From: a virus
DNA: 64,000 nucleotides
Virus record (IMG/VR): IMGVR_UViG_3300019776_000324
Span: 126,001 to 190,000 of that record
Reading direction: 5' to 3' (one strand)
Below the pieces are notes generated by a model that searched no databases, was not told where the DNA came from, and worked only from the letters and a program-made list of their open reading frames with translations. Position 1 is the stretch's first letter; every line of letters begins with the position of its first letter. Positions 12,957-64,000 of this stretch are shown one piece after another. The position numbers were made by a program, and so were the translations under genes.

Positions 12957-12964
12957 TATAAATA
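12957..12964 (+). promoter_or_regulatory. Late promoter TATAAATA
   Basis: Exact T4-type late consensus ending 5 nt before ATG 12970. There is no Shine-Dalgarno, so a leaderless transcript is predicted. Confidence 0.7.
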
Positions 12965-58283: not shown

Positions 58284-60210
<1,927 letters not shown>

Positions 60211-60226
60211 TTAGTAGTTAATTTGT

Positions 60227-60234
60227 AATAAATA
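60227..60234 (+). promoter_or_regulatory. Late promoter AATAAATA
   Basis: Upstream of hsp20, directly followed by a strong stem-loop. Confidence 0.6.
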
Positions 60235-60236
60235 TT

Positions 60237-60266
60237 ACTGTGGGTGCCGATGGTCGGGCCCACAGT
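60237..60266 (+). other. Long stem-loop in the groEL-hsp20 spacer
   Basis: ACTGTGGG/CCCACAGT outer stem (8 bp) and CCGA/TCGG inner stem with TGG loop. No T-run follows, so it fits a 5'-end stabiliser of the late hsp20 mRNA or a 3' end for groEL. Confidence 0.6.
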
Positions 60267-60298
60267 ATTATGTCACTTGCTTAATAAAGGAGAAAACA

Positions 60299-60742
60299 AT
60301 GACAAGACTTACAACTCTGGACCTCAGTCCATTCTATCGCAACTCAATCGGTGTAGACAAATTATTTGATCGTTTGCTTGGTCAAATTGATGCTGGCGGA
60401 ACTACACAGAACTATCCACCATACAATATTGTAAAAACTGGCGACAACACCTACGAGATTCAAGTAGCTGTTGCTGGCTTTACGCAGGGTGAAGTTACTG
60501 TAAATGTTAACGAAGGTAATTTGATTATCACTGGTGAGAAATTATCTAAAGAATTGCCAGAAGGTCATGTGTATGAGCATCAGGGCATCAGCGCCCGTCG
60601 TTTTATGCACACATTTACCTTGGCTGACTATGTAGAAGTAACTAGCGCACTAAGCAAGGACGGTATTCTTACTGTCAAGCTAGAACGCCAAGTTCCTGAA
60701 GCAATGAAGCCTAAAACTATTGCGATATCATACGAATCGTAA
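60299..60742 (+). CDS. Small heat-shock protein Hsp20/IbpA
   Basis: 147 residues. Alpha-crystallin domain (YEIQVAVAGFTQGEVTV ... LIITGEK) and GILTVKL; an IxI-like C-terminal KTIAIS. AAAGGAG. An Hsp20 gene is widespread in aquatic T4-like phages. Late promoter upstream; likely protects virion proteins or host factors from aggregation. Confidence 0.93.
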   Translation: MTRLTTLDLSPFYRNSIGVDKLFDRLLGQIDAGGTTQNYPPYNIVKTGDNTYEIQVAVAGFTQGEVTVNVNEGNLIITGEKLSKELPEGHVYEHQGISARRFMHTFTLADYVEVTSALSKDGILTVKLERQVPEAMKPKTIAISYES

Positions 60743-60750
60743 TATAATAT

Positions 60751-60758
60751 AGTAAATA
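60751..60758 (+). promoter_or_regulatory. Late promoter AGTAAATA
   Basis: Late core upstream of clpS, again followed at once by a stem-loop. Confidence 0.5.
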
Positions 60759-60759
60759 C

Positions 60760-60784
60760 AGTGGAGGGCATACTGCTCTCCACT
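60760..60784 (+). other. 5' stem-loop upstream of clpS
   Basis: AGTGGAG/CTCCACT outer stem and GCA/TGC inner stem around TAC, with single-base bulges. Same architecture and placement as the hsp20 stem-loop. Confidence 0.6.
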
Positions 60785-60804
60785 ATAATAACAAAGGAAC
60801 TTGT

Positions 60805-61113
60805 ATGTCACAAGCTGGAACAGTTACAAAAATAGAAGTTAATCAAATTCTTAAAGAACCTCCAATGTTTAAGGTGATCTATCTTAACGATAATCAAACC
60901 AGTATGGAATTTGTAATTGAAACTCTATTAGACTTTTTTAATTATACTCCAGACACCGCAGTAAAAATTACCCAAGATATCCACGAACAAGGATCAGCAG
61001 TGGTAGCAGTATTGCCATATGAAGTTGCTGAACAAAAAGGCATCGAAGTAACAGTAAGTGCCCGCAGTCAAAATTATCCACTACAAGTTAAACTAGAGCC
61101 AGAATCGGCTTAA
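60805..61113 (+). CDS. clpS: ClpS adaptor homologue
   Basis: 102 residues. YLNDNQTSMEFVIETL aligns with the E. coli NDDYTPMEFV site: the second acidic residue is Asn here. His of DIHEQG (E. coli His66) is kept, and AVLPYEVAEQKG matches the core. ClpS normally hands N-degron substrates to ClpA; the phage carries ClpX, not ClpA. It may redirect host ClpAP. Confidence 0.88.
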   Translation: MSQAGTVTKIEVNQILKEPPMFKVIYLNDNQTSMEFVIETLLDFFNYTPDTAVKITQDIHEQGSAVVAVLPYEVAEQKGIEVTVSARSQNYPLQVKLEPESA

Positions 61114-62439: not shown

Positions 62440-62447
62440 TATAAATA
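62440..62447 (+). promoter_or_regulatory. Late promoter TATAAATA for the curli operon
   Basis: Exact consensus 17 nt before csgF, with TAGGAGCGAGAG as ribosome site. Confidence 0.75.
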
Positions 62448-62464
62448 TCAATAGGAGCGAGAGT

Positions 62465-62917
62465 ATGATAATAATAATAAGATTTACTCTGCTATGTATA
62501 ATTGCGATCTCCTTACAAGCCGTCGCAGTGTCAGCAGAACTGATTCATCAGTTTAACAGCCCCGCCTTCAGCGGAATTGGCTGGTCCAGTCATGTGCTAA
62601 CCATTGAGCAGATGGAAGCCGCACGGGCTCAAAAAATCAAAGACGAAAACAAGGCTGCGCAAGATAAAGCTGAGCGCGACGCTAAAAACACTAACTTGGC
62701 TAAGTTTTTAGTCAATGTGGAAAGTCGTATCTATGCACAATTATCCAAGCAACTAGCAGATGCCATGTTCAGTGATGGCGGAAATAGTGGTAACATGGAC
62801 TTTCAAGGTACAAATATCAATTGGGTTAAAACCGCAACTGATGTTACATTAACAATTACGGAAGCTGGCGGCGGTGTAACGCAGATAACAGTTCCGTTGG
62901 CGAGCTTTGCATTCTAA
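62465..62917 (+). CDS. csgF: CsgF-like curli assembly factor
   Basis: 150 residues with a signal peptide ending VAVSA. LIHQFNSPAFSGIGW near the mature N-terminus matches the CsgF segment that inserts in the CsgG pore. An Ala/Lys-rich helix and a C-terminal beta region (TDVTLTITEAGGGVTQITVPL) follow. CsgF is surface-exposed and couples secretion to nucleation. 1-nt overlap with csgG. Confidence 0.88.
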   Translation: MIIIIRFTLLCIIAISLQAVAVSAELIHQFNSPAFSGIGWSSHVLTIEQMEAARAQKIKDENKAAQDKAERDAKNTNLAKFLVNVESRIYAQLSKQLADAMFSDGGNSGNMDFQGTNINWVKTATDVTLTITEAGGGVTQITVPLASFAF

Positions 62918-63699
62918 TGAAACGGCTTGCTATACTCTTCTGCACACTAGCCCTCTCAGGTTGCGCTAATCTTCACATGATGGCCGCACAGGAAGAACCT
63001 GTGGTCGTTCAACCCAAAGAAAATTTAATGGCCAAACTACCTACACTAGAAGGCCCACCAATGACTGTAGCAGTGTATGGGTTCAAAGACCTAACTGGAC
63101 AAATGAAACCCAACGACAAACTAGCAGTATTCAGTAAGGCTGTTACGCAAGGTGCAGAAGTATTTTTAATTAAGAGTCTACAAGATTCTAGAGGATGGTT
63201 TAGAGTTGTTGAGCGTGTTGGACTTGACAACCTAATTAAAGAGCGTCAACTTATACGCAATCAGCGTGAAGTGTACGAAGGTAAAGATGCCAAAGCATTA
63301 AAGCCACTAACTGTGGCAGGTGTCTTGATTGAGGGCGGAGTTATTGGCTATGACAGCAATATACGCTCAGGTGGTAACGGTGCCAGATTTTTAGGCATCG
63401 GAGGCAGTCAACAATACAGAGTAGATGAAGTTACAGTTAGTCTTAGACTAATCAGTATTGCATCCGGCGAAGTATTGTTAACCAACGCTGTAAGTAAAAC
63501 CATTTACTCTACAGCACATGATGTAGGTGTACTAAAGTTTGTAGATAATGCAACCAAAGCATTGGAAATTGAAACTGGCACCGCATTAAATGAGCCCACG
63601 ACTTATGCAGTTCGTGTGGCCATTGAGCAGTCAGTTTACGAAATGATAGTAGACGGACAACGAAAGGGTCTTTGGAATTTTGTCCAAAGCAAAAACTAA
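62917..63699 (+). CDS. csgG: CsgG-like curli secretion channel lipoprotein
   Basis: 260 residues; lipobox LSGC (Cys16). VAVYGFKDLTGQMKPND, GWFRVVERVGLDNLIKERQL, VAGVLIEGGVIGYDSN and SKTIYST follow CsgG order through the pore and C-terminal regions. In bacteria nine copies form an outer-membrane secretion channel. Slightly shorter than E. coli CsgG. Between csgF and a curlin-like gene. Confidence 0.93.
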   Translation: MKRLAILFCTLALSGCANLHMMAAQEEPVVVQPKENLMAKLPTLEGPPMTVAVYGFKDLTGQMKPNDKLAVFSKAVTQGAEVFLIKSLQDSRGWFRVVERVGLDNLIKERQLIRNQREVYEGKDAKALKPLTVAGVLIEGGVIGYDSNIRSGGNGARFLGIGGSQQYRVDEVTVSLRLISIASGEVLLTNAVSKTIYSTAHDVGVLKFVDNATKALEIETGTALNEPTTYAVRVAIEQSVYEMIVDGQRKGLWNFVQSKN

Positions 63700-63700
63700 A

Positions 63701-64000
63701 ATGAAATCAAGTATGACAAGCGTTTGTAAGTTGCTGAGTAAATTACTTACTGTAGTAGGAATCGTAGCCATGGGTAGTGCGATGGCCAATGAAGTTTATG
63801 TCGAGCAAGTAGGCAGTGGATCTACAATTAACATATTACAAGAAGGTTCTGATAATAGAATTGGCACAAGTTTATCGCCAGCCTATATTGGGTCTGGATC
63901 TAATACAGTTAATATTGATCAAATTGGTGCCAACAATACCTTAGACATGGTGGTTAATGGATCATCAACAGATGTTACAGTATCAACCACTGGTAGTAAT
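63701..64000 (+). CDS. Curlin-like (CsgA/CsgB-type) amyloid subunit, 3' partial
   Basis: Frame open from ATG 63701 to the right edge (100 codons). A signal peptide ends GSAMAN. The mature part has curlin-type repeats of Asn/Gln/Gly: VYVEQVGSGSTINILQEG and NTVNIDQIGANNTL. Begins 1 nt after the csgG stop. The likely cargo of the CsgG channel. The start could also be the ATG at 63713. Confidence 0.75.
   Translation, partial: MKSSMTSVCKLLSKLLTVVGIVAMGSAMANEVYVEQVGSGSTINILQEGSDNRIGTSLSPAYIGSGSNTVNIDQIGANNTLDMVVNGSSTDVTVSTTGSN

Follow-up and report, generated by a model that had tools for sequence, protein, structure and literature searches.

A curli secretion module with its own curlin cargo in a T4-related jumbo phage, and a FecR-domain protein as candidate fibre anchor

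We analysed a stretch of viral DNA of 64,000 nucleotides, hereafter the window (G000:C1:126001-190000), which is part of a virus record of 344,244 bases. Close to the window end, a late promoter element is followed by genes for CsgF, CsgG and a curlin-repeat protein, behind which the full record holds a gene for a FecR-domain protein, a terminator-like hairpin and a gene for a CHASE2-adenylate/guanylate cyclase (Table 1). Features beyond the window end were read in the full record and are given in window-equivalent coordinates (L002 position + 59999). The csgG start codon overlaps the csgF stop, and the FecR gene starts inside the curlin gene in a different frame. Neither a second curlin-repeat gene nor a second FecR gene was found in the whole virus record. 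A csgE gene, which an earlier sequence-only reading of this DNA had advised looking for beyond position 64000, did not turn up either, as the CsgE profile (PF10627) has no match in the record while matching the E. coli control. The phage is a T4-related jumbo phage with UvsX-, gp32-type and DNA-ligase genes and a large terminase closest to that of Pseudomonas PA5oct-type phages (53%). Directly upstream of the curli genes (window 58284-61113) lies a chaperone cassette of GroES, GroEL (Pfam 2.8e-77), Hsp20-like and ClpS-like genes, which is partly syntenic in the relatives L009, L015 and L026.

Table 1 Features of the curli locus; positions above 64000 are window-equivalent
Feature	Position	Strand	Basis and remarks
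T4-type late promoter -10 element TATAAATA	62440-62447	+	exact 8-mer
AGGAG, Shine-Dalgarno-like	62453-62457	+	sequence; 7 nt ahead of csgF ATG
csgF, 150 aa	62465-62917	+	Pfam PF10614 4.8e-15; phrog_35372 1.3e-49
csgG, 260 aa lipoprotein, predicted outer-membrane secretion pore	62917-63699	+	Pfam PF03783 1.4e-52
Curlin (fibre subunit), 206 aa	63701-64321 (in-window part 63701-64000 = first 100 aa)	+	Pfam Curlin_rpt, PDB profile matches
FecR-domain protein with curlin-like tail, 361 aa, GTG start	64263-65348	+	PF04773 2.2e-12
Terminator-like hairpin TACCCAC-TTTATT-GTGGGTA-TTTTTTT	65442-65467		sequence
CHASE2-adenylate/guanylate cyclase, 682 aa	65485-67533 (L002:5486-7534)	+	CHASE2 1.1e-36, Guanylate_cyc 9.8e-14 (Pfam)

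With the standard geometry of T4 late promoters, transcription is predicted to start at about position 62453. Among non-redundant relatives, a TAAATA core lies at most 60 nt upstream of csgF in 44 of 54 cases, compared with 0/54 for csgG, 0/53 for curlin and 1/51 for FecR; as background, it turns up before 18% of other ORFs and in 2.6% of random 60-mers. Just 3/54 of these relatives have the full 8-mer TATAAATA ahead of csgF. The late promoter followed by csgF, csgG and a curlin-like gene, as claimed in the sequence-only reading, is found at its coordinates, and its conservation suggests that the promoter is real at the level of the TAAATA core. Of a T4-type late promoter system, both the -10 element and a gp55-type late sigma factor are present, the latter recognised by phrog_12791 ('sigma factor for late transcription', 7.1e-72) and by a T4 gp55 query (1.2e-7). 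Since the TAAATA core precedes csgF and a gp55-type sigma factor is encoded, csgF-csgG-curlin-FecR most likely form a single late transcription unit; the cyclase gene is separated from these four genes by the terminator in the present phage.

CsgF carries a signal peptide followed by the mature N-terminus ELIHQFNSPAF, which by similarity is the putative CsgG-binding segment. The CsgF component of type VIII (curli) secretion is represented by a Pfam match covering residues 10-144, and a phmmer search of CsgF against the PDB gave no match. CsgG possesses the lipobox LSGC with an invariant lipobox Cys, and its family profile aligns full-length with the E. coli CsgG structures (8.4e-66), so that Pfam, PDB profile and lipobox Cys together identify the pore lipoprotein of type VIII secretion. 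In 23/57 non-redundant relatives (most of L005-L013, L016, L020-L028, L031, L033, L036 and L045), CsgG is extended at its C-terminus to a protein of at least 335 aa whose end is an SH3b-like domain (in L007, Pfam SH3_4 1.1e-4) that might tether the pore to peptidoglycan.

The curlin carries a signal peptide and scores above the cut-off of Pfam Curlin_rpt (6.1e-5). With the family profile, matches to E. coli CsgA (0.01) and, more strongly, to the solved curlin-repeat protein 8c50 (1.2e-8) were obtained. The sequence-only reading depended on a frame that neither ends at once past position 64000 nor lacks further repeats; the frame does run on to 64321, and seven two-strand rungs are predicted. 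These rungs form a beta-solenoid in the AlphaFold model of the homologue from L003 (79% identical; 33-sequence alignment; mean pLDDT 85.7, pTM 0.77). A Foldseek search of the curlin model against the PDB returned no significant match (CsgA fibril at E 0.46). Taken together, Pfam, 8c50 and the solenoid model identify a curlin-repeat cargo with signal peptide as in type VIII secretion. The repeat residues are kept across very different phages, and two cysteines, C107 and C115, are invariant, a feature in which E. coli CsgA differs. Both the phage curlin and the phage FecR protein lack a glycine-rich segment for CsgG targeting like that of E. coli.

In the FecR protein, a signal peptide stands directly ahead of the FecR domain (PF04773), which was present in 41/41 family members checked. 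Outside this domain the protein has no convincing Pfam match, and a cytoplasmic anti-sigma Pfam domain was found in none of the 41 members. The signal peptide at its start and the lack of a cytoplasmic anti-sigma part lead us not to regard the protein as a FecIR-type regulator; this identity, which would call for an N-terminal cytoplasmic anti-sigma domain with one membrane helix behind it, was dropped. The FecR protein of every complete relative (63/63) closes with a curlin-like tail some 48 residues long. The tail profile aligns with the last 44 curlin residues, which are the last two rungs, at an hhalign score of 25.05 that none of 400 column shuffles reached (median 10.2, maximum 19.6); the reversed control scored 12.8. 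Pfam Curlin_rpt matched the tail in 0/41 members, BLASTP of the tail was not significant (E 1.3), and its single-sequence HMM scores overlap ambiguously with those of shuffles. The curlin likeness of the tail is thus a claim at the profile level, because single-sequence methods miss it.

In a low-confidence model of the FecR protein (pLDDT 65.6), a beta domain of FecR type is connected by an LDxN-rich linker of low confidence to a small beta domain at the C-terminus. Fold matches of the FecR part are the periplasmic domain of PupR (1.2e-4), BDI_1681 and the 'cell surface anchoring domain' 5ix9, the last over 62 columns at 1.0 A (E 4.5e-3; TM 0.74 by target); by E-value, the two regulator-domain matches are the better ones. 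A search of the FecR profile against PDB sequences returned nothing useful. When the profile was run against 399 Pseudomonadota genomes, FecR-domain matches were obtained in 140; the bacterial matches listed reach at most about positions 2-250 of the profile and never cover the curlin-like tail, and many of those listed sit in open frames of 1,000-9,900 aa. In the giant bacterial ORFs that we fetched, the FecR domain lies near the N-terminus, and one of them stands beside a gene for a TolC-like channel. Adhesin retention domains remain in the periplasm, where they keep the protein held within its channel in the outer membrane (PMC13090378), and the phage FecR domain appears to resemble such N-terminal modules of giant adhesins.

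Scanning IMG/VR with CsgG gave 75 loci, of which 11 or more stand on contigs over 200 kb; with the present phage included, this makes 76 loci. The order csgF-csgG-curlin-FecR is found on one strand in 69/76; in the remaining seven, csgF and csgG stand alone and the contig ends early or is cut. Because the same four-gene order recurs in 69/76 loci, the association of these genes is not due to chance. A cyclase gene follows downstream on the same strand in 33 loci, and in another 16 it is encoded on the opposite strand. The cyclase motif reads YDILGDMVSTAAR in the present phage, where Ser replaces the usual Asn, and YTCLGDSVNLASR in other relatives; judged by this motif, two cyclase lineages occupy the same position. 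Some relatives have a secreted protein of about 670-690 aa with an autotransporter-like C-terminus inserted between csgF and csgG or after FecR (L007:9128-11176, L026:8899-10893, L019:3995-6004, L042:3924-5999). This protein is absent from the present phage record, and its L026 copy has no Pfam or PHROG match.

Among deposited phages, good CsgG matches (46-47%) were confined to Melnitz (4 records) and HTVC008M (2), besides OR851715.1. The latter, named 'Salmonella phage S.Kent 1-2-1', has 1,499 bases with a CsgG gene at 40% identity and is possibly a fragment of a host csg locus deposited as phage. A bacterial donor operon was sought in one scan of bacterial genome contigs, which gave eight phage-like contigs and Azospirillum soli; A. 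soli has csgF, csgG and curlins, and in this one bacterium checked no FecR gene lies near csgG. Phage-like contigs with curli modules in bacterial bins (L080-L085, L087, L088) concern Rhodobacteraceae, Pirellulales, Flavobacteriaceae, Crocinitomicaceae and Pelagibacter, and are probably mis-binned phages.

As a kind, the phage curli module is already known, because a complete module of the same order has been published for pelagiphages (PMC9599517). Following the report of csgF and csgG in pelagimyophages (Zaragoza-Solas 2020, PMC7029224), full csgF-csgG-csgA/B-FecR-AC modules were described in mSystems in 2022; they lack csgE, and the FecR protein is named a regulator (PMC9599517). In HTVC008M and Melnitz, too, annotated curlin genes adjoin csgG. 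The Melnitz paper states that csgA and csgB are missing, favours a pinholin role and notes that no clumping of the cultures was seen (PMC9004378), whereas the GenBank record of Melnitz annotates two curlin-repeat genes. Of the sequence-only reading, the secretion-plus-cargo unit made late in infection stands, given the complete curlin, the pore, CsgF, the conserved late-type core and the late sigma factor; the novelty that it implied for this unit falls to the modules published in 2022 (PMC9599517) and to the curlin genes of HTVC008M and Melnitz. As far as the literature that we searched reaches, what is new is that a family of jumbo phages shares the module, that the promoter core is conserved, and that the FecR protein bears a curlin-like tail, together with the reading of that protein as an anchor.

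The pelagiphage modules of SAR11 myo- and podoviruses (PMC9599517; HTVC008M) share with the present phage the order csgF-csgG-curlin-FecR-(second curlin)-cyclase and the absence of csgE, and the FecR tail also occurs in HTVC008M and Melnitz. In contrast to pelagiphages, with which its CsgG is 46-47% identical, the present phage has no second curlin gene and no histidine kinase next to the operon, its cyclase lies behind its own terminator, and its genome is that of a 344-kb jumbo phage compared to about 140 kb in pelagiphage myophages. In the second curlin gene of HTVC008M (L078:7076-8401), curlin repeats are combined with a PA14 domain (2.7e-6), which suggests a sugar-binding adhesin on the fibre. 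The Methylophilales phage Melnitz agrees in gene order and has FecR and curlin genes annotated in GenBank. With the E. coli csgBAC/csgDEFG system, the present phage shares the CsgG and CsgF families and a curlin-repeat cargo, but neither CsgE nor a separate CsgB was found, the curlin is devoid of a glycine-rich N22 segment, the constriction-loop sequence of CsgG differs and a FecR-domain gene is added. Giant T1SS adhesins (5ix9, PMC13090378) are secreted proteins whose N-terminal beta-rich domain the FecR domain of the phage appears to resemble, by the fold match of the low-confidence model and by the nearest bacterial sequence matches; in the phage protein, however, this domain is joined to a curlin-like tail and linked to CsgG instead of a TolC-like channel, and adhesin repeats are absent.

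What would the FecR protein then contribute to a fibre operon? We propose a late type VIII (curli) unit with its own cargo, whose FecR protein would tether the fibre at the CsgG pore and nucleate it, and consider the case for this proposal about evenly balanced. The operon would be switched on late by the T4-type sigma factor of the phage; CsgG would form the pore in the outer membrane, CsgF would sit at the mouth of this pore, and the curlin would be exported through CsgG and stack as a beta-solenoid amyloid fibre on the infected cell. Much as a retention module does in a giant adhesin, the FecR domain may fold and remain periplasmic at the pore; the two-rung curlin-like tail of the protein would reach outward and template the first curlin subunit, the role of CsgB. 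We infer this anchor and nucleator function from the likeness of the tail, the absent anti-sigma part and the apparent adhesin likeness of the FecR domain. Against it count the strong divergence of the tail, the low confidence of the FecR model with its better-scoring regulator matches, the lack of a significant PDB fold match for the curlin, the absence of a FecR gene near csgG in A. soli and of a glycine-rich targeting segment in either phage protein, and the unclumped Melnitz cultures (PMC9004378). More tentatively, and with some doubt, we suggest that the retention-type domain with its tail is a novel type of anchor that plugs the CsgG pore while nucleating the fibre, leading to a cell-tethered amyloid coat late in infection. 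A fibre tied to the cell could clump infected cells with their neighbours or shield them against other phages; aggregation or 'sibling capture' and a superinfection shield have been proposed earlier (PMC7029224, PMC9599517). The CHASE2-cyclase would be transcribed on its own and probably acts as a sensor of the periplasm or the fibre that produces cAMP. If these proposals are true, phages build functional amyloid on the cells they infect, with a single protein evolved as anchor and nucleator in place of CsgB; the jumbo-phage family carries the module far wider than pelagiphages.

The matches of the FecR fold to the anti-sigma periplasmic domains of PupR and BDI_1681 also agree with a regulatory role, in which FecR senses a periplasmic signal and, with the CHASE2-cyclase and cAMP, tunes fibre output, the tail being just a docking site for curlin. 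Such a reading has been published for pelagiphages (PMC9599517); moreover, CHASE2 is a periplasmic sensor domain, and a cyclase lies near the module in most long loci. We nevertheless regard it as unlikely, since the FecR protein begins with a signal peptide and has neither a cytoplasmic anti-sigma part nor a Pfam match for one, its gene lies behind the fibre-gene promoter and overlaps the curlin gene, and the cyclase stands behind a terminator here and on the opposite strand in 16 loci.

Instead of serving a fibre, CsgG-CsgF might act as an ungated outer-membrane hole, either for end-stage lysis or depolarisation in a pinholin-like manner or for solute uptake during infection, as proposed for Melnitz and pelagiphages (PMC9004378, PMC7029224). 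The late promoter, the lack of a detectable CsgE gate in the record and a pair of weakly holin-like small membrane proteins within about 6 kb of csgG, one or both of which occur in 34/59 long loci, agree with such a pore; this reading appears quite unlikely to us, as it leaves unexplained why a curlin and a tailed FecR protein accompany the pore in every sufficiently long locus and why the curlin repeat residues are conserved across very different phages. Fibre-based aggregation or a surface coat would fit the anatomy of the module better than an open lysis pore. The FecR protein could also be a periplasmic chaperone whose tail caps the edge strands of curlin against premature fibres, in place of CsgC and CsgE. 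The tail does mimic the terminal curlin rungs, no CsgE was found and the FecR domain may remain periplasmic; yet we know of no chaperone of this kind and the apparent similarity to adhesin retention points to anchoring, which makes a chaperone improbable in our estimate.

Two related copies of small membrane proteins of phrog_18771 are encoded on the minus strand beyond the cyclase gene (L002:7958-8281 and L002:8884-9165). They show weak similarity to the holin phrog_4898, and 34 of the 59 long loci have members close to the curli module, with at least two copies in 28. Elsewhere in the window, late-promoter motifs often stand 10-15 nt before start codons (positions 12957, 15268, 26791 and others), and for 9 of the 20 TAAATA sites upstream of window ORFs the predicted transcript begins at or next to the ATG and would be leaderless.
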